Source of the DNA: Cognatiyoonia sediminum
Lineage (GTDB): Bacteria; Pseudomonadota; Alphaproteobacteria; Rhodobacterales; Rhodobacteraceae
Direction: 5' to 3'
Length of the DNA: 64,000 nucleotides
Assembly: GCF_900129845.1 (NCBI RefSeq)
Contig: NZ_FQXB01000005.1
Coordinates: 62,001-126,000, forward strand
Every line of letters begins with the position of its first letter. Within the stretch, counting starts at the first letter, position 1. The notes beneath the pieces are model-generated. The model saw nothing but the letters and a program-made list of their open reading frames with translations. It made no database searches and had not been told where the DNA came from. The position numbers were made by a program, and so were the translations under genes. Of the stretch, positions 26,991-38,678 are shown in pieces.

Positions 26991-27854
26991 ATGTTGACGG
27001 CTGATAGGATCGCGGAAAGCCAATTAGGTATGAACATGATTTCAGATTCGATCACCCGTCGCTCGTTTGGTGCGCTCATGCTGTCATCTGCAGCCGCTTG
27101 CGGTCAGTTGCCATTTTCCAACCCTGAGGTTGAAGAGACCCCTCAATTTCTGGAGGGATATGGTCCGATATTTGATGCGGGATATACGCTTCCGGGCATT
27201 CCTGAGGAATACACACAAGGCATCAACCGCCGGATGGAAGGCTTCTACACCGGAGAGGCTGAGCCGGGTACAATTGATGTCGATCCTTATTCCAAGTTTT
27301 TGTATCTGATCCAAGAAGACGGTCGCGCAGTACGCTATCCTGTTGGGGTTGGTCGTGCTGGCCGCAGCTTCAGCGGACGAGGTACCATTCAACTTAAGAA
27401 AAAGTGGCCGGGCTGGACGCCGACGCAGAACATGATCCGTACTGAACCGGACGTTTATGGCCCGTTCCGGCGGGGCATTCCGGGCGGTTTGCGGAGCCCA
27501 CTTGGTGCACGTGCGTTGTATCTATATCGCGGCGGTCGCGACACCTTCTACCGTATTCACGGAACAAATGATTTGGAGAGCATTGGCAACTCTGGTTCAG
27601 CCGGATGTATCCGCATGTTCAATCAGGACATTATCGACCTCTATAACCGTGTTTCGACGCCTATGAAGGTCAATGTGCGCAGCGAGGCGGAAAGCCTTCG
27701 TGTCGATCCAGAATATTTTGGCCGCGGTGTCGAACTGCCGCCGAAATTCTTGGATGCAGATGAGGTTTACAACGCGCTTGAAACCGATACGCCGCCTGAC
27801 TTTGACGCTGTTGACCCGGCTCTCATACCGGAAGTAGTTGAGTCAGAAATCTAA
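26991..27854 (+). CDS. L,D-transpeptidase (YkuD domain), exported
   Basis: 287 residues. Forms 3-3 crosslinks in peptidoglycan or attaches proteins to it. The YkuD active site is complete: HGTNDLESIGNSGSAGCIRM, with His and catalytic Cys. The N-terminus has a twin-arginine motif and hydrophobic stretch (ITRRSFGALMLSSAAACG), suggesting Tat export; the Cys could be a lipobox, but the -3 residue is Ala. Starts at 26991, 27030 and 27036 are all possible; the later two give a cleaner signal peptide. Periplasmic. Confidence 0.92.
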   Translation: MLTADRIAESQLGMNMISDSITRRSFGALMLSSAAACGQLPFSNPEVEETPQFLEGYGPIFDAGYTLPGIPEEYTQGINRRMEGFYTGEAEPGTIDVDPYSKFLYLIQEDGRAVRYPVGVGRAGRSFSGRGTIQLKKKWPGWTPTQNMIRTEPDVYGPFRRGIPGGLRSPLGARALYLYRGGRDTFYRIHGTNDLESIGNSGSAGCIRMFNQDIIDLYNRVSTPMKVNVRSEAESLRVDPEYFGRGVELPPKFLDADEVYNALETDTPPDFDAVDPALIPEVVESEI

Positions 27855-27961: not shown

Positions 27962-29038
27962 ATGGCAGATTTTGACGCGCAAATTGAACAATCTCAGGCT
28001 CAGGTCGCGGAAGCACAAAGTAAGATTGCAGAGCTGACCAGCCGGATCGAAACGGCGCGTCAGAAGATGGCAGAAGGGGCAGATATCGCCGTAGATATTG
28101 AGAATGCCACCCTTGAGGATGTGCACGCCCATACGGAGCTTATGAACGCCAATATTGCTGAATTGATTATGGGCTTGGACGATGTGACGGCGGGCTTTTC
28201 GAAAGACTTCGATGAAATGCGGTCGAAAACCACGATGGAAAGCATCGTGGGCTGGTTCTCCGGCGCGAAGTCGGACTCGATGCGGGAAGAGCGGATGCGC
28301 GAAAGCTCGGTCGATGACAAATTGCAGGATCTAATCAGCAAGTCGGACACGATCGTTAAGCTGCTGCAAGGGCAGCTCGATATGCTGAACGAACAAAAGA
28401 CGAGTGTTGAGACGAACCTTTCCGGCACGTTAGATGAGCGTGAAATGGTTGTGGCTGAGTTAGAAGGCGTGCGGGCCGAGATTGGTGGTATGGACCCCGC
28501 GATCATCACGTTGGAGAATAAGATCAGCGTCGAACAAGATGCCGCCGCGCGGACGAAGCTTGAAACAGAACTCGCTGAGCTGAACACCAAATACAACGCG
28601 CTGGTACAGGATGAGCAGGTGAAGCTTGCGAAGTCGCAGACGCTGGAGCGCTATATTGAGAAGGGCAAAACCTGGATTGACTCGCTGCAGAACCAGGCGG
28701 CGACGCAAATGGTGCTGATCAATAAGCTGCAGACGGACACCAAGCAGCGGGTTGTTCTCTATGATGCGCTGTCGAAGTCTTTGAAAACGGCGCAGCAGCA
28801 GGACGTGGCGCACCGGATCAATGAGATCGGTGTGAAAACCGACCAAGAGGCGCAGACCGCGATGGCAGCGATTGGGTCAGCGACCAATGCGAAGATGGCG
28901 GACATGCTGGAAGCGCATGAGGACCACATGGTCTTTGCCCGCGAGGTGTTGGAGCAAAAGGCAAAGGCCGATGAGCGGTTTATCCGCCGGTTCCAGAAGA
29001 TCGTGGAGAAGCATGATAGCAATCAGTACGGGGCTTAA
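27962..29038 (+). CDS. Long coiled-coil protein, first gene of the uncharacterised AAA+ locus
   Basis: 358 residues, not recognised. Heptad-rich helix runs almost end to end (AQIEQSQAQVAEAQSKI at the start; LDMLNEQKTSVETNL; LENKISVEQDAAARTKLETE), broken by a short hydrophobic FSGAKS-containing turn near residue 95 (ESIVGWFSGAKSD). It has no signal peptide or membrane span. The order (helical N-part, WF-SG turn, long C-terminal coiled coil) is loosely reminiscent of TelA/toxic-anion-resistance proteins; this is a weak impression only. Stop overlaps the next ATG (TAATG), so it is co-translated with the small membrane protein. Confidence 0.75.
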   Translation: MADFDAQIEQSQAQVAEAQSKIAELTSRIETARQKMAEGADIAVDIENATLEDVHAHTELMNANIAELIMGLDDVTAGFSKDFDEMRSKTTMESIVGWFSGAKSDSMREERMRESSVDDKLQDLISKSDTIVKLLQGQLDMLNEQKTSVETNLSGTLDEREMVVAELEGVRAEIGGMDPAIITLENKISVEQDAAARTKLETELAELNTKYNALVQDEQVKLAKSQTLERYIEKGKTWIDSLQNQAATQMVLINKLQTDTKQRVVLYDALSKSLKTAQQQDVAHRINEIGVKTDQEAQTAMAAIGSATNAKMADMLEAHEDHMVFAREVLEQKAKADERFIRRFQKIVEKHDSNQYGA

Positions 29039-29343
29039 TGTCCATTAGGTTGCGGTCCATTTTGGCGTTTACTGGACTCGTTGTTGTTTTCGTTGCCGGA
29101 GGGCTTCTAACACAGAGCGAAATATTCAGTTCGTCAGAGATTGAGTTTTTCTTGTTTTTGATAATGGTGCCTCTGTTCTTGCTTGGCATTGCTGCTCCGG
29201 CCTCGCGCAGTATGCTAAAGTCAACAAAATGGCTTGAGAACGAGCGAAATCTTCAAATTTGGCAGGATTCTCACGGCCCTTTTATGGGTAAATTTAGAGA
29301 GTGGTTTCTGGGCATAGATAAAGCGGGACACTTACGCGAATGA
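29038..29343 (+). CDS. Small two-helix membrane protein
   Basis: 101 residues, not recognised. Two membrane helices at about 7-28 (ILAFTGLVVVFVAGGLL) and 36-56 (FFLFLIMVPLFLLGIAA), then a basic/aromatic cytoplasmic tail ending WFLGIDKAGHLRE. Starts inside the stop codon of the coiled-coil gene. Probably a membrane partner for that protein. Confidence 0.65.
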   Translation: MSIRLRSILAFTGLVVVFVAGGLLTQSEIFSSSEIEFFLFLIMVPLFLLGIAAPASRSMLKSTKWLENERNLQIWQDSHGPFMGKFREWFLGIDKAGHLRE

Positions 29344-29368
29344 AGAGTTTGAAGTATTGCACCCAGTC

Positions 29369-29412
29369 GCCCGGCATCGCCGGGCAGCGCCCGGACCTCC
29401 CCCCGAGGGGAG
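29369..29412 (+). repeat. Two adjacent GC-rich hairpins between genes 2 and 3 of the AAA+ locus
   Basis: Stem 1: GCCCGGC (29369-29375), loop ATC, GCCGGGC (29379-29385). Stem 2: CTCCCC (29397-29402), loop CCGA, GGGGAG (29407-29412). No U-tract follows either, so they look like RNA processing/stability or pausing elements rather than terminators. Confidence 0.6.
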
Positions 29413-29467
29413 AGCGCTTCGCACCCACCCCTGATGTCCGTGCGATGCCCTTTCTATTGAGAATTGA

Positions 29468-30592
29468 ATGACCAAAACTGACCTCTCACAAGATCACTTC
29501 CAGCTTGAAGACACTCGTGTCACGCGTCGGTACTTTGGGAAGTTTGAGAAGATCACCGATCACCTGACCCGCGTCGCGGCCACGATGGAGGCGGAGCGGC
29601 GGTTGGCGCGACGGGATATTGAGGCGCTGGCAGGATATCTGGTTGGGCTAAATTACACGTTCAAAGCGCTGGCACATAAGTACCATTTCTCTGGCCGGTT
29701 CGCCCATGCGGGGCAATTGACCTTTGATAGGGTGGAAAGCGGGTTTCCTGTTTATCAAGAACTGCTCGAAATGGCGAATGATGCGCAGCAAGCGCAGGCA
29801 CACCTTGCTTCGATGCCATCGGTTGAAGAACTCAAGGAACAAATGGTCCGTACGATAGTCGGCGATCAGGAGATACCGACAAAACTGCAGTTCGCGCTGT
29901 CGCAAAGGCTCTATTATGAAGAGCTTTTGAAAGAGAAACTTTTCTGGGCGCGCAACGATCCCAAAATTGTCTGGCAGGGCAACAAACATGATCGCCGCCG
30001 TACGTTTCAAATCCATTGGGCAGTCTATGATAGTCAGGTCAATCTGCCGACGATCTACCTGATGGATATTGAAGATACCGGTCGGACAGGCTTGCCCAAG
30101 GACGAAAAGCGGTGGCCGGAGGTGCAAGCGCATCTGATGGCGCAATCCGTCGGTGGGTTGAAGTTGTTGACCATCGCCAAAGGCTTTGACGAGGATTTTG
30201 ACGACTTGCACCCCGTGCGGTTACGGCGATTTCATATCGGGCCAATGTATAGCCACGCCTTCACCCGTCAGCGTGGGCCATTGCGCGAGGTGTTAGAGCA
30301 GGCGAAATCCCCCGTTGGCGAGGATTGGGCGCTTGTCTGGACCGAAGAGGATTTGGTGTCGGAACGCGCTGAACGGGTGAAGTCAGGGTGGTTCGGGACG
30401 GTTGAGCGGCAGATATTCACGCTTGATCCCTTTGCAGGGCAGGGTGCGGATACGGGCACGACGCGGATGGAGCGATCTTTGATTATGCCGGAGCGCCCTT
30501 ATCAAGCATTGGCCGAACGCAATCCTCCGGGGTTTCGGGATGTGCGGAAATTTGTCGTGGGCGATGGGGGCCGCGTGTTGAGTTACCGATGA
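29468..30592 (+). CDS. Uncharacterised 374-residue protein of the AAA+ locus
   Basis: No family recognised. Predominantly charged and soluble, without signal peptide or membrane helix. The N-terminal 110 residues are helical (HLTRVAATMEAERRLARRD), the middle is mixed (IVWQGNKHDRRRTFQIHWAVYD; NLPTIYLMDIEDTG), and the C-terminus contains ADTGTTRMERSLIMPERP. The HDRRRTFQIHW stretch is very basic. Placed directly upstream of the ATPase gene, it may be a substrate adaptor or structural component; that is inference. Clear ATG at 29468 with only a weak Shine-Dalgarno. Confidence 0.7.
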   Translation: MTKTDLSQDHFQLEDTRVTRRYFGKFEKITDHLTRVAATMEAERRLARRDIEALAGYLVGLNYTFKALAHKYHFSGRFAHAGQLTFDRVESGFPVYQELLEMANDAQQAQAHLASMPSVEELKEQMVRTIVGDQEIPTKLQFALSQRLYYEELLKEKLFWARNDPKIVWQGNKHDRRRTFQIHWAVYDSQVNLPTIYLMDIEDTGRTGLPKDEKRWPEVQAHLMAQSVGGLKLLTIAKGFDEDFDDLHPVRLRRFHIGPMYSHAFTRQRGPLREVLEQAKSPVGEDWALVWTEEDLVSERAERVKSGWFGTVERQIFTLDPFAGQGADTGTTRMERSLIMPERPYQALAERNPPGFRDVRKFVVGDGGRVLSYR

Positions 30593-30633
30593 CGGGCGTC
30601 GCTTTTGCGCCCTGGCGCAACGCGCCCCGCCCG
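30593..30633 (+). repeat. Nested GC-rich inverted repeats between genes 3 and 4 of the AAA+ locus
   Basis: Inner stem TTGCGC (30605-30610), loop CCTG, GCGCAA (30615-30620), enclosed by CGGGCG (30593-30598) and CGCCCG (30628-30633). It starts right after the stop codon and no T-run follows. It probably folds in the mRNA and separates expression of the ATPase from the genes before it. Confidence 0.55.
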
Positions 30634-30668
30634 CCATCCCGCGAGATTAGACAGAAAGACGAACTGAG

Positions 30669-32603
30669 ATGAGCCAGACAACCGATCAGATGGAACTTCG
30701 CGAAGAAGAAATCCGCAGCCACTATGCCGCTGCCTTGGATTTGCTCGACGGGTTTGATCACGCCCCGCGGATCGCGACGGCGACTGCACCGGCGGCGGAA
30801 AAATCATCTGGCGTCGGAACACGTCGGGCGTTTCGGTCAACGACGCCGGGATTAGCGACGAGACGCGTCGCCCGCAAAGAGGGCATTCAGCTGACGTCGC
30901 GGATCGAAGCGGTAGAGGGGGGCGATGGTTTGGTCTCTCCTTTGCAAGCAACGGTGCAACAGTCGTTGCGTCGCGCCATCGCCATCGCTTTGGCTGTGGG
31001 TGAGCAATTTGCGGAGCGCACCGCGTTGAAAGACCACAAGCGGGCCAATTTGGAAGGCAGCCTCGCTGATGGAGCGCGGGCCGAATTTTCCGAGTTACTC
31101 ACGGCCGAGGCATTGGTCGCGCTTTATGTCTTTGGTTCTGCCACAGCCTTCCTGCTTGCCCCGCACGCAGGCGAAGATACAGTTGAGGTTGGAGAAGTCG
31201 AGGAGTTCCTGACTGACAACGGGCAATTGGCATTACACGGTGCGTTGTGGGAGCTTGACCAAGACATCGGCAAACATGCGGGCGACGAACCGAAACTCGT
31301 CGCAACGATCTTGGCATTTGCGGAAAGCTTGATGGATAAGACCGCGGCCCGCGCAAGTACGGCCGGCCGGTTGGAGCCGTTCAATACCGCGAGTTGGCGG
31401 GTTGAGGCGGATGACTTCCCGATCAACGGGTTCACACCTGCGCAGAAATCCAAGGGCTCTGTCCTGACGATGACGTTCAAGAAACCGAACGAAGTTGTCG
31501 GCAACCACATCGCCAAATATCAGGCGTTGAAGCTCTCCAAGATGTTGATGGCCTACGATTTTGAGCGGAAGCTTAACCCGTTTGCCGAGTTGGGCGGATT
31601 TATCTTTACCTTCATGGGCGACGGGAAACCGGGGACAGGTAAGACGACGTTGATCCAAATGATGGCCGGGCTGATCAACGATTACTGCCAAGTCGCGGGC
31701 TATCCGTTCCGCTATCAAAACCTATCGACGGACAATATTGATAGCTATCAGGGTAAATCCGGACAAAATGCAAAGGCATTCATCAACAACGTTGTTGATC
31801 CCGGTGTGATCGGGTTTGGTACGATTGACGATATTGATCAGTTGGCGGGCAAACGTGGGGATCGTCAGTCCTCTGCCGGTCAGTTGGAAATCACGGCTGT
31901 GCTGATGGAGAGTTTTGCGGGTGCCAATACGGTTGTACGAGGCAATTGCACCTTTGGGATGTTCTCGAACTACCCTGAAAACGTTGATGACGCCTTGCGC
32001 CAACGTGCCGGCGCGCGGTTCTTGGTCGACGGGCCACAAACGCGCGAAGACTATATTGATATTCTCTACCTGCTGATGGGTAAGAACCACGATATCCCCG
32101 TCGGTCAGCACGAAGTTTTCTCAGCGCAAGAGATCAAAAAGGCTGTGGCCGCCAGTTTCGAAAGCCACGCGCGCCCGCATGAAGAGGGGTTGATGAAGGT
32201 GTTTGATCGGGTCCAGTCCCAGATTGGGGATCTTGATACGATCGCCAAGCTGGGGACCTATCTGAAGGGCATTCAGGAAGCGGACGAACGCTTTACGGGA
32301 CGTGCAATCAAGAACATCACAGATGCCGTTAAAGTGCGGGCCATGGATTTCGAACTTCCTGACGAATGGATGGAAAACCCCGAGCTGTTCCTTTTCAAAA
32401 ACTACGACACCAAACGCGACATGATTGCCGATCTCCGCCAGCCCATCACGGTCGAAATGGTCATTCAAGAGATCAACCGCTACGCCGATAGCGAATTCCG
32501 ATATGCGGACAAATCGGACGAAGTGGCGATTGAAAATGCCGTCCGAGATATGGAGCGCATGGAAGAGGCCAAGCGCCGTTACCTGGAAGGAAAGGGAAGC
32601 TAA
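30669..32603 (+). CDS. AAA+ ATPase with a large N-terminal extension
   Basis: 644 residues. AAA+ core about 280-480: Walker A GDGKPGTGKTTL (318-329), Walker B-like GFGTIDDID (382-390), sensor-1-like FSNYP (432-436) and arginine-finger candidates in ALRQRAGARF (442-451). Residues 1-250 are an unrecognised helical extension, including a disordered basic stretch (GTRRAFRSTTPGLATRRV). The C-terminus is helical lid-like. It is not MoxR, Clp, FtsH or a transposition ATPase by motif context. Neighbours (coiled coil, small membrane proteins) suggest a membrane-associated remodelling machine; substrate unknown. ATG at 30669. Confidence 0.82.
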   Translation: MSQTTDQMELREEEIRSHYAAALDLLDGFDHAPRIATATAPAAEKSSGVGTRRAFRSTTPGLATRRVARKEGIQLTSRIEAVEGGDGLVSPLQATVQQSLRRAIAIALAVGEQFAERTALKDHKRANLEGSLADGARAEFSELLTAEALVALYVFGSATAFLLAPHAGEDTVEVGEVEEFLTDNGQLALHGALWELDQDIGKHAGDEPKLVATILAFAESLMDKTAARASTAGRLEPFNTASWRVEADDFPINGFTPAQKSKGSVLTMTFKKPNEVVGNHIAKYQALKLSKMLMAYDFERKLNPFAELGGFIFTFMGDGKPGTGKTTLIQMMAGLINDYCQVAGYPFRYQNLSTDNIDSYQGKSGQNAKAFINNVVDPGVIGFGTIDDIDQLAGKRGDRQSSAGQLEITAVLMESFAGANTVVRGNCTFGMFSNYPENVDDALRQRAGARFLVDGPQTREDYIDILYLLMGKNHDIPVGQHEVFSAQEIKKAVAASFESHARPHEEGLMKVFDRVQSQIGDLDTIAKLGTYLKGIQEADERFTGRAIKNITDAVKVRAMDFELPDEWMENPELFLFKNYDTKRDMIADLRQPITVEMVIQEINRYADSEFRYADKSDEVAIENAVRDMERMEEAKRRYLEGKGS

Positions 32604-32604
32604 G

Positions 32605-32940
32605 ATGCTGTTGGATGGCCTCTTTTTTCCTGCTGTGATCCTCGCGGTGTTGTCGTGGATGGTACCGAAGCTGCTTAGCTTCGTGATGCCCGAGGGTGTG
32701 AAACCTTTGCTTTTGTTGGCATTACTTTCAACGTTGATTTTGTTCCTTCTTTCTAGTGTGTTTTTCTTCGTTCTTTACCTCTGGCAAGGCGCGACACTCG
32801 CGCGATTGGCGGAAGGCGGACTTTCAACGAACATCCTATTGTTCGGGCGGTTGGGTATGATTGCAGGGATGATTTGGGCACCCATCATGGTTCTTTCGGT
32901 TGCGGCGCTACCGCGCCGTTGGAAAAAGGAGGTCTGGTAA
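32605..32940 (+). CDS. Small three-helix membrane protein
   Basis: 111 residues, not recognised. Three hydrophobic segments: about 6-28 (LFFPAVILAVLSWMVPKLL), 34-60 (LLLLALLSTLILFLLSSVFF) and 78-103 (ILLFGRLGMIAGMIWAPIM), ending with a basic tail RRWKKEVW. The ATG at 32605 overlaps nothing but begins one base after the ATPase stop, with a GGAAAGGGA purine tract upstream. Inner membrane. Confidence 0.65.
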   Translation: MLLDGLFFPAVILAVLSWMVPKLLSFVMPEGVKPLLLLALLSTLILFLLSSVFFFVLYLWQGATLARLAEGGLSTNILLFGRLGMIAGMIWAPIMVLSVAALPRRWKKEVW

Positions 32941-32943
32941 ATC

Positions 32944-34317
32944 ATGGATCTTCTGATCGAAAAGGGCCTGATGTTCGGCAATCTGATCCGCATTGATAGC
33001 CCAGTCTTGGTTGAACGCTACAATCGGGCGCTCGATGCTTTGACGGGTAAGCGAACCGAACTGACCGAGTTTCATATCGATATCGCTGGTTTCTCCCCAG
33101 AGATCGGGGATGAGTTGGCTGATCCGCTCTACCTTAACCATGAAGGTGTCAATCGGCAGTTCATCTTGTTGACTACCGAGCAGAAACGCGCGCCACTTCT
33201 GTCGTCGAAATTCTCAACATCACGAAGTATTCTACGCCAGTTTATTGATGAAAACGAACGCGAGTTATTTGCCCTGACGGTGCGGGACGCTGTGGCGGGC
33301 GAGGTGGTGAACTCTGTTTTCCGGATTGAGACACCGGCCGATTTGTTCGAGATCAGAAAACTGCGGATCGAGGCAGACACTACCGACGGGACCGTTCGCG
33401 TGGCGAAACGGCTTCGGGGCATGATCGATGAATTTAAGACCCGTCCTGATGCGTGGTTCGACGACGTGTTGATCGGTGAGATGATTGGCCTTGCTAAAGA
33501 AACCGGTGACGTTACCCGCAACCCTGTCATCTTGCCTGAAATGGAGTTCGACCAGTCGAACTTTTGGACCTCTCATTTTGGCGGCCTCTATGTCTTTCGG
33601 GATATTGAGAATCCTGCCGTAATCAGTGTTGGGCCAAAGAAAAAAATCGGGAAGACACCGCTGCCGATTGTCTTTGATTTCGATGATCGCGCGCATATTG
33701 CGACCTTTTTGGATTTGAACGACTTGGTGGAGCCGATCATCAAAGCGCGCGGAATGGATGCAACCGCTGTCCTTCGGCAGAAGATGGATTTTATCGTTGC
33801 ACGCGTTGCCGCCGACAGAGGAGAAGAACTTAGCCAGGCGACGCGACGTGATCTGCGCGCGTTGGGCCGCAAGTACGCAGCAAGTTTACCGGCTGAGTGG
33901 CAAGGTTTGGCGGCTTTGGTGCGCTGGGCTGAAGAGGGCGGAAGTTGGCCGCATATCACGTCAGGCCACCCAGCCTATTTCTATTCCTTGAGAGCCAAAC
34001 CGCACAAGGACGCAGATTTGGTCAACCGGTTGCTGGCAGAGCTGTCACCGCTTGATTTTCGCCAATTGTTTATCTGTCATAAGGATGCCTTTTACGCGGC
34101 TTACGCTGAATGGCCGGATGCAAAGCAGGCCTATGTGGCGCGTTTTTTGGAATCTGAGTATCAGGTGGATAAGGCGGGTGCTCGTGAAGCGCTTTTCGGT
34201 TCAGAGGCGGATATGAGCGAACCGGATCCGCAGGACGCTTCGCCGTGGAGCGCTGGACGCTCTCGTGATATGATCGATCGTGTTGGCCCTTGGGGTGCCA
34301 TCAATAGGAGAATGTGA
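32944..34317 (+). CDS. Uncharacterised 457-residue protein (DUF6638-like)
   Basis: Soluble, no signal peptide. I recall roseobacter proteins of this appearance as DUF6638, but could not verify it. Readable landmarks: FHIDIAGFSPEIGDELADP near 40, HEGVNRQFILLTTEQKRAPLL near 66, FRDIENPAVISVGPKKKIG near 218 and a C-terminal helical half (RHDLRALGRKY-like, HITSGHPAYFYSLRAKPHKD). No catalytic motif is recognised. Four bases after the membrane protein stop; the stop overlaps the next ATG (TGATG), so the three genes are translationally linked. Confidence 0.7.
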   Translation: MDLLIEKGLMFGNLIRIDSPVLVERYNRALDALTGKRTELTEFHIDIAGFSPEIGDELADPLYLNHEGVNRQFILLTTEQKRAPLLSSKFSTSRSILRQFIDENERELFALTVRDAVAGEVVNSVFRIETPADLFEIRKLRIEADTTDGTVRVAKRLRGMIDEFKTRPDAWFDDVLIGEMIGLAKETGDVTRNPVILPEMEFDQSNFWTSHFGGLYVFRDIENPAVISVGPKKKIGKTPLPIVFDFDDRAHIATFLDLNDLVEPIIKARGMDATAVLRQKMDFIVARVAADRGEELSQATRRDLRALGRKYAASLPAEWQGLAALVRWAEEGGSWPHITSGHPAYFYSLRAKPHKDADLVNRLLAELSPLDFRQLFICHKDAFYAAYAEWPDAKQAYVARFLESEYQVDKAGAREALFGSEADMSEPDPQDASPWSAGRSRDMIDRVGPWGAINRRM

Positions 34318-34583
34318 TGGGGTTTGTTCGTCTCGTTATTTTTGGCTTTCTATTACTGAGTGTCATCTATCTTTCGCTGTCCTGGTTCACTCGGTCTCTG
34401 CGGCGCGAAAGCCTTGAAAATGAGTGGGATGAAGACCAGCCTGAAGGTATCAGCCGAGACGACTACGTGGCAGCGGGGATTAAAGAGTACAATGACGGTT
34501 TGAGGCCTAAGCTATTGTTATTGGTCTACGTGATCCCCACCGTTTTGATTGCCACAATTGTTTATCTGACCAATTCGAACTGA
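34317..34583 (+). CDS. Small two-helix membrane protein
   Basis: 88 residues, not recognised. Helices at about 4-22 (VRLVIFGFLLLSVIYLSL) and 64-84 (KLLLLVYVIPTVLIATIVYL) flank an acidic cytoplasmic or periplasmic loop (ESLENEWDEDQPEGISRDDY). Start ATG at 34317 lies within the preceding stop (TGATG), with AGGAG at 34306-34310; an upstream GTG at 34314 is less likely. Topology and role unknown. Confidence 0.65.
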   Translation: MGFVRLVIFGFLLLSVIYLSLSWFTRSLRRESLENEWDEDQPEGISRDDYVAAGIKEYNDGLRPKLLLLVYVIPTVLIATIVYLTNSN

Positions 34584-34592
34584 GGACTAGCA

Positions 34593-35273
34593 ATGAACCG
34601 ACTGCGTATGATTTTTAGGGTGACGGTTTTTGTGATCGTCGGTTTGCTCTTGCATTATGTTTTGCCCCAACATGACATAGTGCGCATCACATCAACCGAA
34701 GTAATCCGGACGGATTTCAGTGGCTTCAATCGGTTCTTCTATGCGCAAGCGGACAGCGGAAACGTCGATCAGCCAACGCGTGATTTGCGGCTGATCAATA
34801 CGGACAAGAGAGAGACATTCCTTCTAGGGTTCATCCCACGCGACTCTACCGAAGTGATGGTCTACCGCAATGAAGACACCGGTTGGATTTGGCCGCCGTA
34901 CTTCAAGTTTGATAGCTCTGATTTACAAGCGGAGGCGGCAAGTGCGGCCAAGGAAGACGGCTGGCACGTGATGACACACTATGGCTGGCGTATTCGCTGG
35001 GCATCTATCTATCCCAATGCGATTGATATTCGGCCTGTGGAGGGGCCGGACGTACGGGTTATCCCGTGGTTTAACATCTTCTTCTTTACCTTCTTGATCA
35101 TCGCGATTGTGACGATCCGTGCGATGTGGCGACAATTCCGAGAGCGGAAGGTTGATCCCCTGTTAGATCAAGCGGGAGACAAATTTGATGAGGTTCAGGC
35201 TGGCGTCGCTGAGCGGCGGTCTGGGGTGCGCAAGTGGATGAACACTTGGCGAAAGCCAGAGAATAGAAAGTAG
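34593..35273 (+). CDS. DUF1523-family membrane protein
   Basis: 226 residues. Landmarks of DUF1523: LHYVLPQHDIVRITSTEV, MVYRNEDTGWIWPPYFKFD, MTHYGWRIRW and DIRPVEGPDVRVIPWFNIFFF. Membrane helices at about 8-24 and 155-180; the conserved middle is periplasmic. Function unknown. It is last in the locus, nine bases after the previous stop, and is followed by a chain of hairpins that probably ends the transcript. Confidence 0.85.
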   Translation: MNRLRMIFRVTVFVIVGLLLHYVLPQHDIVRITSTEVIRTDFSGFNRFFYAQADSGNVDQPTRDLRLINTDKRETFLLGFIPRDSTEVMVYRNEDTGWIWPPYFKFDSSDLQAEAASAAKEDGWHVMTHYGWRIRWASIYPNAIDIRPVEGPDVRVIPWFNIFFFTFLIIAIVTIRAMWRQFRERKVDPLLDQAGDKFDEVQAGVAERRSGVRKWMNTWRKPENRK

Positions 35274-35280
35274 GGTGTAG

Positions 35281-35351
35281 GCGGGCCCGCCTGCCCACCC
35301 CATTTGGGGGCATTCTGCCCCCACGGCCTTTCAGGCCTTCCCCCTGAAGGT
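35281..35351. repeat. Chain of intergenic hairpins (REP-like, shared 3' end of two convergent operons)
   Basis: Palindromes in a row: GCGGGCCCGC (35281-35290); GGGGGCA/TGCCCCC around TTC (35306-35322), competing with CCCC/GGGG (35298-35309); GGCCT/AGGCC around TTC (35325-35337); then CCCCCTGAAGG and TATTTTT. It fills the gap between the DUF1523 stop and the convergent ALDH stop. The T-rich tail supports termination in the plus direction. Similar chains occur at convergent gene ends in many Rhodobacteraceae (from memory). Confidence 0.65.
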
Positions 35352-35371
35352 ATTTTTGGCAAGAGGAAGGG

Positions 35372-37687
35372 CTATTCGCCGTAAGGGATCCAGATATTCT
35401 TGATCTCGGTCGCGGCGGCGAGAAGGTCTTTTGCTGGCGGCGCATGATCGTAACCGTGGTTAACGCATGTGCGTTTCAGGTTTCCGGCCGCAGCTTTCTC
35501 GATTGTTCCTGAGATATCAGAGCCGGAGAAGGACCACACAGCGTCAATATCTGCATGACCAGCCACGTGGGGGGCGAGTTCTGCATGCCCACCTGTCAGG
35601 ATATTGACCACACCGCCCGGAACATCCGAGGTTTCTAGGATTTGGTAGAGGTCGGTGGCCAAAAGCGGGAAAGGCTCTGAACCGATCAGTGTAATCCTGT
35701 TGCCCATCGACATTGCGGCTGCCATTGGGGCGACCGCGCCGAGTAGAGGGTAGTCATCCTCACAGAAGACCGCGATCTTACCGACCGGTTCTTTCATGGC
35801 CAATGCGACACCGCGGATTGGGACCCCATGCGCTTGACCGTCGTATTTGTCGGCCCAAGCGGCAAAGGTGAAGAGGGTTTGAATTGTTTGGTCGACTTCG
35901 ACCTTGCCCGCTTTGCCGGTCAGCGACTTGATCCGATCTGCAAGTTCATTGGCGCGTGCTGAGAGGTTTTCAGCGATGTAGTAGAGGATTTGCGCACGCA
36001 GGTGGCCGGTCGTTTTGCCCCAACCTTTGGCCGCGTTCATGGCTTCTACGGCGTTTCGCACATCCTTGCGATTGGCGAGACCAGCGTGTCCGACCAAGGC
36101 ACCTTTTGGCCCGTAGATTGGTTTGCTGTAGCCACCGTCGGGCCGCACTTGCTTGCCACCGATGTATAGTTTTGCCGTGCGATCTAGTGGATCACTAGGT
36201 GCACCATTGCCTGAGTAGGCTTGGATCGGTTTCAGTTTTGTCGGTTTCGCTTTAGGCTTGGTATAGGCTACCAATCCTTCCCAACCGCCTTCGCGACCAA
36301 ACCCGCTTTCACGAACGCCTCCAAATCCGGCGGCGGCGTCCATCATGTTTGTTCCGTTGATCCAAACGATGCCGCAGACGAGTTTTGGGGCGATGTCTAG
36401 GGCGAGATTTATGTTTTCCGACCAAACAGAAGCCGCCAGACCATAGCGAGTATTGTTGGCGATCTCGATGGCCTCCTCAGGTGTGCGAAACGTTGTGGCG
36501 GCCAGAACAGGGCCAAAGATTTCTTCCTGCATTAAAGTTGATGCTGGGTGCAGGCCGGTGATGAGCGTCGGCGGAAAGAAACAGCCAGAGGGTGCAGCAG
36601 TTTGGAAGGTCTCGCCCTCTGAGTTGTCGCTGACCATCTTGGAGATTTGTTCAAGCTGAACCGGATGCACGATGGCGCCAATGTCGATGCATTTATCAAG
36701 CGGATCACCGACCCGCAGGCCCGACATACGCGTTTTGAGGCGCGTGTAGAAATCCTCGGCAATGCCTTCTTGTACTAGTAAACGGGATCCGGCGCAGCAG
36801 ACTTGGCCTTGGTTGAACCAAATCGCGTCCACAAGTCCTTCGATCGCGCTGTCTATGTCGGCGTCTTCAAACACGATGTATGGGGATTTCCCGCCGAGTT
36901 CCAAGGTCAGCTCCTTGCCCGTTCCCGCGGTGGCTTCGCGGATGATCCGACCAACTTCGGTCGAACCGGTGAACGCGATTTTGTCGACGTCGGAATTTAC
37001 AAGTGCGGCCCCAGTCGAGCCGTCACCAGTGACGATGTTCACGACGCCGGGCGGCACACCTGCTTCTGTGCAAATCTCAGCAAACACCATTGCGGTGAGG
37101 GGGGTGTATTCCGCGGGTTTCAAGACGACCGAGTTGCCCATGGCCAAGGCGGGCGCGATTTTCCAAGCCAGCATCAGCAAGGGGAAATTCCAAGGGATAA
37201 TTTGCCCACAGACCCCAATCGCCTTGCGATCCGGCAGTTCGGTTTCCATAAGCTGCGCCATTCCTGCGTGATAGTAGAAATGTCGTTGCGCCAGTGGCAC
37301 GTCAATGTCGCGGCTTTCACGGATGGGTTTACCGTTATCGAGCGTTTCCATCACAGCAAAAAGACGGCTGTGCTTTTGGAGGAGGCGTGCAATCGCGTAA
37401 AGGATGCGCGCGCGGCCTTGACCGCCTAACTTCTCCCATTTAGGTTGTGCTTTTCGCGCGGCGGCAACGGCCCGTGCCACTTCCTCTTCGGTACCGTTGG
37501 TGACACCGGCGAGGCGTTCGCCTGTAGCTGGGTTGGTGGTGGTAAAATCGTCTCTCAAAGGACCCCACGACCCGTTGATGTAGTGGCCAGCGATGCCGCC
37601 GCGATCTGCCAACCATTGCAAAGCCTCGGTGCTGCTTTCGGGGGCTGGGCCATAGTCCATCGTTTCGAAAATCTCTTTGACGGTCAT
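35372..37687 (-). CDS. Two-domain aldehyde dehydrogenase (second domain degenerate)
   Basis: 771 residues, about 1.6 times a normal ALDH. Domain 1 (about 40-490) is complete: PWNFPLLMLAWKIAPALAMG, FTGSTEVGRII, general base in ELGGKSPYIVF near 263 and nucleophile in NQGQVCCAGSRLLV near 297. Domain 2 (about 500-771) has ALDH-like sequence (YIGGKQVRPDGG; GRVALAMKEPVGKIAV-like; ITLIGSEPFPLLATDL) but lacks the catalytic cysteine motif. Predicted to oxidise acetaldehyde released by DeoC to acetate. ATG at 37687, four bases after the deoC stop; an in-frame TTG at 37699 is less likely. Common partner of deoC in roseobacters. Confidence 0.88.
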   Translation of the reverse strand: MTVKEIFETMDYGPAPESSTEALQWLADRGGIAGHYINGSWGPLRDDFTTTNPATGERLAGVTNGTEEEVARAVAAARKAQPKWEKLGGQGRARILYAIARLLQKHSRLFAVMETLDNGKPIRESRDIDVPLAQRHFYYHAGMAQLMETELPDRKAIGVCGQIIPWNFPLLMLAWKIAPALAMGNSVVLKPAEYTPLTAMVFAEICTEAGVPPGVVNIVTGDGSTGAALVNSDVDKIAFTGSTEVGRIIREATAGTGKELTLELGGKSPYIVFEDADIDSAIEGLVDAIWFNQGQVCCAGSRLLVQEGIAEDFYTRLKTRMSGLRVGDPLDKCIDIGAIVHPVQLEQISKMVSDNSEGETFQTAAPSGCFFPPTLITGLHPASTLMQEEIFGPVLAATTFRTPEEAIEIANNTRYGLAASVWSENINLALDIAPKLVCGIVWINGTNMMDAAAGFGGVRESGFGREGGWEGLVAYTKPKAKPTKLKPIQAYSGNGAPSDPLDRTAKLYIGGKQVRPDGGYSKPIYGPKGALVGHAGLANRKDVRNAVEAMNAAKGWGKTTGHLRAQILYYIAENLSARANELADRIKSLTGKAGKVEVDQTIQTLFTFAAWADKYDGQAHGVPIRGVALAMKEPVGKIAVFCEDDYPLLGAVAPMAAAMSMGNRITLIGSEPFPLLATDLYQILETSDVPGGVVNILTGGHAELAPHVAGHADIDAVWSFSGSDISGTIEKAAAGNLKRTCVNHGYDHAPPAKDLLAAATEIKNIWIPYGE

Positions 37688-37691
37688 ATGT

Positions 37692-38678
37692 TTATCCAAT
37701 CGGGTGGCGCCAGTTGGCGGAGTAGTTGCCGGTCACATAGTGTTCGAGTTGTCGTTCGATATCGCCTAAAAGAGAAGAGGCACCAAAGCGGAAAAGGTCG
37801 GGCTGTAGCCAGCGGCCGCCCAGTTCGTCCTTGATCATTGCAAGATAGGTAATCGCGTCCTTTGCCTTTGAGATACCACCAGCTGGTTTATAGCCGACTT
37901 TTAGGCCAGTGCGCGCCTCATAGGCTCGGATAGCACGGATCATGGCGAGCGTGACCGGAAGGGTCGCATTCACTGGCTCCTTGCCGGTCGATGTTTTGAT
38001 GAAATCGGCCCCCGCCATCATGCAAACCAAACTTGCTTTGGCGACGTTGCGAAGGGTGCCAAGTTCGCCCGTCGCAAGGATGGCTTTGACATGCGCGTGA
38101 CCGCAGGCGGCGCGCATTTCTTTCATCTCGTCGTAGAGCGCTTGCCAGTTTCCGGTGAGCACGTGGCGGCGCGAGATGACGATATCGATTTCTTCAGCGC
38201 CCGCTGCGACGCTTTCGCCGATCTCCGAGATGCGCAAATGGAAGGGTGACAAGCCAGCTGGAAAGCCAGTTGAAACCGCGGCTACAGGGATGCTCGTGCC
38301 GCGCAGTGCATCCACGGCTGTTGGCACCATGTCGTGATAGACGCAAACCGCACCGGTGGTCAGGCCAGTCATACCGATCTTATCAAGGATAACTGGAGAC
38401 ACGGGCTGGCGCGCCTTTGCGCAAAGCCGTCTGACTCGCGCTTCTGTATCATCGCCAGACAGTGTCGTTAGGTCCATGCAAGAGATCGCTTTGCACAGCC
38501 AAGCCGCCTGGTGCGATTTCTTTACAGAACGGCGACCCGGCAGAGTTTTTGCCCGCCGCTCAATTGCAGATGTGTTCGCCTGTACTGATGCCACCCAATC
38601 CAGATCGAGAGGCATTCCATCGTTTCTCGGCTCTTGGATTTGCGGCAATTGCAGGGATTCGTCGATCGCGGTTTGCAC
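37692..38678 (-). CDS. deoC: Deoxyribose-phosphate aldolase
   Basis: 328 residues, larger than E. coli DeoC (259). Splits 2-deoxyribose 5-phosphate to glyceraldehyde 3-phosphate and acetaldehyde. The Schiff-base lysine lies in DFIKTSTGK, and the closing GYKPAGGISKAKDA holds the second lysine. An N-terminal extension of about 60 residues precedes the barrel. The only plausible start is GTG at 38678, seven bases after AAGGAG; the nearby ATG at 38694 hits a stop after four codons. First gene of a two-gene operon with the ALDH. Confidence 0.93.
   Translation of the reverse strand: MQTAIDESLQLPQIQEPRNDGMPLDLDWVASVQANTSAIERRAKTLPGRRSVKKSHQAAWLCKAISCMDLTTLSGDDTEARVRRLCAKARQPVSPVILDKIGMTGLTTGAVCVYHDMVPTAVDALRGTSIPVAAVSTGFPAGLSPFHLRISEIGESVAAGAEEIDIVISRRHVLTGNWQALYDEMKEMRAACGHAHVKAILATGELGTLRNVAKASLVCMMAGADFIKTSTGKEPVNATLPVTLAMIRAIRAYEARTGLKVGYKPAGGISKAKDAITYLAMIKDELGGRWLQPDLFRFGASSLLGDIERQLEHYVTGNYSANWRHPIG

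Follow-up and report, generated by a model that had tools for sequence, protein, structure and literature searches.

Several described defence operons carry unrelated genes between their own genes. TgvAB lies inside a type I restriction-modification operon of Vibrio cholerae (PMC11411939), and Hma-embedded defence candidates are also on record (Payne et al. 2024, as cited in PMC12988326 and PMC11411939). A second kind of gene neighbourhood is that of Vps4/ESCRT-III and of PspA with AAA+ ATPases (PMC11237479), in which a classic AAA gene stands beside a coiled-coil gene, along with membrane partners. Here we report on an eight-gene operon of Cognatiyoonia sediminum, located at 27962-35273 of a 64,000-nucleotide stretch of contig NZ_FQXB01000005.1 (the window, to which all positions below refer), which shares features with both.

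As in the defence operons, unrelated genes, among them families already known as defence candidates (PDC), are found between conserved genes of the operon. Unlike them, the host operon here is of no known function, its cargo consists mostly of small membrane proteins, and two fixed slots undergo codon-precise exchange between near-identical operons. With the Vps4/ESCRT-III and PspA systems the operon shares the arrangement named above; it differs in that neither the PspA nor the Snf7 profile is matched by its coiled-coil protein and in that the Walker B motif of the ATPase contains Asp-Asp. No counterpart of two further proteins, the DUF6638 protein and a 374-residue protein, is described for those systems (PMC11237479). 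Two of the genes encode full-length members of PF20343 (DUF6638) and PF07509 (DUF1523), both families of unknown function. The literature searched contained no paper mentioning DUF6638 and no description of the system.

A conserved four-gene core within the operon

The eight open reading frames (ORFs) all lie on the plus strand and encode proteins of 358, 101, 374, 644, 111, 457, 88 and 226 residues. Five of the seven junctions measure between -1 and +9 bases. The coiled-coil gene overlaps the 101-residue gene in a TAATG (29036-29040) and the DUF6638 gene overlaps the 88-residue gene in a TGATG (34315-34319), with spacings of +1 between the ATPase and 111-residue genes, +3 between the latter and the DUF6638 gene, and +9 between the 88-residue and DUF1523 genes. 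The remaining two junctions, on either side of the 374-residue gene, are looser (124 bp upstream, 76 bp downstream). This layout agrees with the initial annotation, made from the sequence alone, and Pfam confirmed the two family names that it had proposed, DUF6638 (E 4.9e-223; 741 bits against a cut-off of 27) and DUF1523 (E 2.9e-60; 203 bits against 23). The only other Pfam match was AAA (E 1.6e-11); the coiled-coil protein (CC), the 374-residue protein (P374) and the 101-, 111- and 88-residue proteins (M101, M111 and M88) matched no Pfam family.

We collected 80 loci by similarity to the ATPase; about 110 more were taken by their position in whole genomes, on plasmids and in distant clades. 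Together these gave 168 non-redundant complete loci. In every one of these, the genes for CC (27962-29038), P374 (29468-30592), the ATPase (AAA; 30669-32603) and the DUF6638 protein (32944-34317) occurred in constant order on one strand. The ATPase and DUF6638 were present in the identical 112 of the 196 genomes sampled from the order; in a sample of the phylum, the ATPase was found in 25 of 398 genomes. The conservation of the set across many genomes rules out a chance arrangement. The earlier proposal, that an AAA+ ATPase with coiled-coil and membrane partners forms the centre of a system not yet described, is upheld. A four-gene core of marine bacteria, without an assigned function, is thus carried by more than half of the sampled genomes of the order.

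The expectation that all eight genes travel as a set was borne out for these four, which were never found apart, but not for M101, a variable passenger, or for M111, M88 and the DUF1523 protein (D1523), which form a separable module. The operon is accordingly not one unit but three parts, a soluble core, a resident membrane trio and a 101-residue passenger.

The same four-gene order was found in Rhodobacteraceae, on Rhizobiaceae plasmids, on Vibrio megaplasmids and in one very divergent gammaproteobacterium. The Vibrio megaplasmids (L154 and L155) carry the bare core, with 38% ATPase identity and an mfd-like gene following it, and lack the membrane module. In the gammaproteobacterial locus (L160), the core is deeply divergent (ATPase 7e-58, DUF6638 7e-42, CC 1.7e-9, P374 1e-4); it is flanked, within L160:4556-14246, by genes for an M50B-like peptidase, a protein with two transmembrane (TM) segments, a 1-TM protein and a jacalin-like lectin. 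A second gammaproteobacterium (G245) has a Rhodobacteraceae-type copy, which was probably transferred, as it is placed among Rhodobacteraceae in the core tree.

Rapid and codon-precise exchange of genes at two slots

Genes are inserted into the core at two junctions, CC|P374 (slot 1; 29039-29467) and AAA|DUF6638 (slot 2; 32604-32943), intervals to which no strand is assigned. Spacing of at least 150 bp was observed at CC|P374 in 108 of the 168 loci and at AAA|DUF6638 in 149, compared with 16 at P374|AAA. The ORFs in the slots fell into 161 clusters, 109 of them singletons. Slot 1 contains mainly 2-TM proteins of 60-130 residues, and slot 2 contains 3-TM proteins of about 110 residues, 2-TM proteins that also have a coiled coil, and proteins that are soluble. 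At least two membrane segments were predicted for 196 of 322 sense slot ORFs as opposed to none of 234 antisense ORFs, and the first cargo gene overlapped the upstream gene or lay within 10 bases of it in 77 of 105 cases (slot 1) and 77 of 149 (slot 2). Taking both observations together, the cargo ORFs are real genes. The slots thus offer, within a single defined context, about 160 families of cargo genes, most of them for small membrane proteins that are uncharacterised.

The guanine-plus-cytosine (GC) content of the variable cargo was about 7 points below that of the core of the same genome. In C. sediminum, slot 1 is occupied by M101 (29038-29343, plus strand; two membrane segments by hydropathy), which is coupled to CC through the TAATG. 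Its gene has a GC content of 45%, compared with 53-55% in the core genes, and only 3 of the 168 loci carry a member of its family. Slot 2 holds only the resident M111 gene, so that membrane proteins alone are found in the slots of this operon. On pSymB of Sinorhizobium meliloti Ak57 (L156:10918-14333), the ATPase and DUF6638 genes are separated by an ISRm16-family transposase gene and an endonuclease-domain gene. A search for two cargo families outside the slots gave no informative plasmid relative.

Cargo exchange is fast. Among pairs of loci with at least 95% core identity, only 3 of 93 shared the same cargo in slot 1 and 14 of 102 in slot 2. Two loci (L223 and L232) whose core proteins are 99.7% identical, and whose DNA is about 95% identical, carry unrelated genes in both slots; homology of their DNA ends at the CC and AAA stop codons and restarts at the P374 and DUF6638 starts. 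Codon precision was general. In pairs with disjoint cargo, which are not independent of one another, homology extended no more than 15 bp beyond the upstream stop codon in 232 of 232 cases for slot 1 and 230 of 233 for slot 2, and no more than 15 bp ahead of the downstream start codon in 232 of 232 and 227 of 233, respectively. In 59 nearest-partner pairs, homology breaks numbered 45 and 43 in the slots, 5 at P374|AAA and 33 in 362 kb of flanking DNA; none occurred within core genes or at the DUF6638|M88|DUF1523 junctions. If all that lies between two coupled core genes is replaced, boundaries exactly at codons are to be expected; they point to exchange of whole slots without singling out a particular recombinase.

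A resident membrane module separable from the core

The membrane module consists of M111 (32605-32940), M88 (34317-34583) and D1523 (34593-35273), all on the plus strand, with three, two and two membrane segments by hydropathy. M88 is coupled to the DUF6638 gene through the TGATG, and a GTG at 34314 is an alternative start that would give 89 residues. The two segments of D1523 lie near residues 6 and 157 and flank a presumed periplasmic domain. In 155 loci M88 and D1523 come after DUF6638, and in none of these does either junction have an insert. The family of M111 (cluster 0) has 43 genes in slot 2. M111 was at first considered as cargo, but this assignment was dropped: the family differs from the core in GC by 0.000, showing no such drop as the variable cargo does, and it stays beside DUF1523 when the core is lost. 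An alignment search of the 196 genomes found M111 in 49, including 14 without the ATPase; in 14 of 14 core-less loci it adjoins DUF1523, and the 88-residue gene was detected in eight.

A comparison of DNA at the empty site with a core-less congener proved too diverged to be useful, and synteny of core-less loci was used instead. The core-less L280 has the same flanks as relatives that bear the core, and its homology to them starts again at the 88-residue gene. L289 retains a 65-residue CC relic and a still recognisable end of DUF6638. A decayed core with broken ATPase and DUF6638 genes is present at L140:6885-10325. The core, decayed or lost in L140 and L289, is therefore dispensable, and these loci together with L280 indicate that it can disappear as a unit and leave the membrane trio in place.

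Membrane partners differ by lineage. In addition to DUF1523 and M88, which take the place after DUF6638 in Rhodobacteraceae, we found a membrane-anchored DUF2333 protein after DUF6638 in eight of nine Sinorhizobium-type loci, and the 2-TM and 1-TM proteins of L160; the Vibrio plasmids are the exception. Being encoded beside membrane proteins in most lineages, and having no clear membrane anchor of its own, the core may form a soluble ATPase complex that is recruited to the inner membrane. A phage origin was considered and set aside. M111 was absent from the phage and plasmid records searched, and tblastn with DUF1523 against phage gave no match; a weak match of the DUF1523 protein to a phage family was seen.

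Sequence features of the core proteins

The PF00004 match covers residues 319-452 of the ATPase and is the only domain recognised by Pfam, which assigned none to the N-terminal 290 or so residues, where an MIT domain would be sought in a Vps4-type protein. Walker A and B motifs, the sensor-1 Asn and arginine fingers are all present, features that place the protein in the classic AAA clade. Its best sequence matches in the Protein Data Bank were weak and were to FtsH-type proteins, fidgetin, Vps4 and katanin; profile searches did not make it a close relative of any described system, in line with what had been anticipated. Mean pairwise identity of the ATPase is 76.1%. The Walker A motif (GDGKPGTGKT, residues 317-326; 31617-31646) follows the pattern GDGxPGTGKT in at least 166 of the 168 loci, and the arginine-finger region (DDALRQR, with R444 and R446; 31998-32006) is near-invariant. 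In the Walker B motif (IDDID, residues 386-390; 31824-31838), an Asp takes the place of the usual catalytic Glu; the pattern GT[IV]DD[IV]D was found in 168 of 168 loci, with FDDID in L160. The sequence SYQGKS (residues 359-364; 31743-31760), identical in 155 of the 168 loci, would by analogy correspond to pore loop 1, with Y360 as the aromatic residue seen in threading AAA proteins of the Vps4 type.

CC is the most conserved protein of the set (mean pairwise identity 79.7% over 155 loci), and none of 29 members matched a Pfam family above its cut-off. A relationship of CC to PspA or ESCRT-III found no support from profiles, as both PspA_IM30 and Snf7 were absent at E <=0.1 in the 29 members. 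The conservation fits a polymer or ring contact surface on which the ATPase would act. For P374, which has a helical N-terminal and a beta-rich C-terminal region, and for the DUF6638 protein, both soluble, AlphaFold (AF2) models had pLDDT values of 88.7 and 83.7. Neither model had a confident fold match among solved structures. The best Foldseek E values were 0.54 for P374 and 0.59 for DUF6638, and the best VIA scores were Z 5.0 (root-mean-square deviation 4.9, 151 residues aligned) and Z 4.0 (3.0, 50 residues), respectively; new folds are not thereby proved.

Resemblance of cargo proteins to defence proteins

Profile searches were carried out on 73 representatives of the cargo, mostly from slot 2, with 75 flanking genes as the control. 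Pfam identified Mrr restriction endonuclease, DUF559 endonuclease, the AbiJ N-terminal domain (AbiJ_NTD4) and NA-iREase1 (two each), as well as DUF2971 and an exonuclease. PADLOC matches were PDC-S02, mREase_IV, PDC-S31 (the DUF2971 protein), PDC-S48 and DEDDh; in the flanking genes the one strong PADLOC match was a WYL regulator. Unrelated genes of defence type thus lie between core genes in relatives of the operon. In the second-largest cargo family, a constant N-terminus with two TM segments is joined to a variable C-terminus, which in two of eight genomes tested is putAbiC, above the curated cut-off and inside the slot. A cargo family represented at L221:7363-8223, L258:5684-6499 and relatives shows a constant membrane N-terminus followed by variable C-terminal domains, putAbiC in two, a layout like that of polymorphic effectors.

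Possible function of the operon

The pace at which slot-coupled cargo is exchanged resembles that of arms-race effectors, and for this reason we favour a role in defence or conflict. Compared with envelope stress or resistance to a membrane agent, the roles that the initial annotation had thought possible, what the slots carry speaks rather for conflict with phages or genetic conflict of another kind. While the comparisons above show the architecture of the operon, its function is inferred. The reading that we prefer, with confidence just short of even, is that the operon encodes a membrane-coupled AAA+ protein-remodelling machine that serves or controls interchangeable slot effectors, most likely as a conflict or anti-phage system. 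The core would work with M111, M88 and D1523, of which D1523 and M88 may anchor the machine at the inner membrane or sense damage there. An ATPase ring with an aromatic pore loop would remodel CC, with hydrolysis that is perhaps slow or switch-like on account of the Asp-Asp in Walker B, and remodelling of CC could set the coupled cargo free or load it. Among the cargo, small membrane proteins might then block DNA entry or depolarise the membrane, and others might act as nucleases or Abi proteins. A more specific proposal, which we put forward only tentatively, is that CC, P374, AAA and DUF6638 constitute a vertically inherited platform and a new class of conflict machine, coupled to the membrane and loading or licensing unrelated, rapidly exchanged effectors from two dedicated slots, so that operons almost alike in their core would be differently armed. 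If the core is a defence platform, it represents a new organisation of swappable effectors and a new place to seek them.

Several results weigh against a defence role. Strong defence matches (E <=1e-10) were in modest excess, with about 5-7 among the 73 cargo representatives and 1 among the 75 flanking genes, and because most cargo proteins are membrane proteins without family assignment, this excess is suggestive, not conclusive. PADLOC 2.0 found no strong match and no complete system among the core proteins, the best being LmuB for CC (2.7e-6) and TRIP13 for the ATPase (2.8e-5). Phage records and IMG/VR yielded no relative of the ATPase, and the genes neighbouring the operon in the window are metabolic, with no obvious defence island. 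Named genera cluster in the core tree, indicating vertical inheritance, and 57% of the genomes sampled from the order have the core, a frequency that would also suit a housekeeping machine. We considered that the core remodels inner-membrane complexes or small membrane proteins as part of envelope housekeeping, the slot genes being clients or accessory subunits rather than immune effectors. The vertical inheritance, the high conservation of CC and AAA, the persistence of the membrane module at its site in core-less loci, and the majority of small membrane proteins among the slot genes would all suit such a machine. Its patchy presence, with loss and decay, would not, and slot genes change faster than clients should and include endonucleases and Abi proteins; we regard this explanation as possible, yet doubtful. 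Were it correct, the hyper-exchange inside the operon would need another explanation.

The slots might also be passive landing sites, two junctions that tolerate coupled hitch-hiking genes with no functional link between cargo and core. The diversity of the cargo and its low GC are compatible with this, and the flanks vary too, though much less. Random hitch-hiking, however, does not predict that insertion is limited to two junctions, is codon-precise and mostly comes with translational coupling, or the preference of each slot (2-TM proteins in slot 1; 3-TM, 2-TM or soluble proteins in slot 2), and we consider landing sites improbable. The initial annotation had seen a faint likeness of CC to TelA, from which a resistance system of the TelA kind, against toxic anions or membrane agents, could be supposed. 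CC is helical and a profile comparison revealed one short similar motif (AGFSKDFDEMRSKTTMESIVG in CC compared with RGFSVDELDPNRRRSWWERLFG), but none of the 29 CC members matched PF05816 at E <=0.1, the profile-profile probability by hhalign was 1%, and a true TelA-family gene is present elsewhere in the same genome (G000:C14:1240070-1241062; L176). The likeness did not hold up, and a TelA-kind system is very improbable.

Sequences around and between the genes

We compared the predicted folding of the intergenic RNAs with that of shuffled sequences, and only the gap between the 101- and 374-residue genes folded better (z -2.2). GC-rich hairpins just 3' of the DUF1523 gene (35274-35371) are in a terminator-like position and fold no better than shuffles. 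Downstream, on the opposite strand, is a gene named from its sequence as an aldehyde dehydrogenase (35372-37699). Upstream of the operon lies an L,D-transpeptidase gene (26991-27854), as is the case in about 37 loci. A relative is also found ahead of the core-less loci L278 and L280, so that the L,D-transpeptidase tracks the chromosomal site and not the core.

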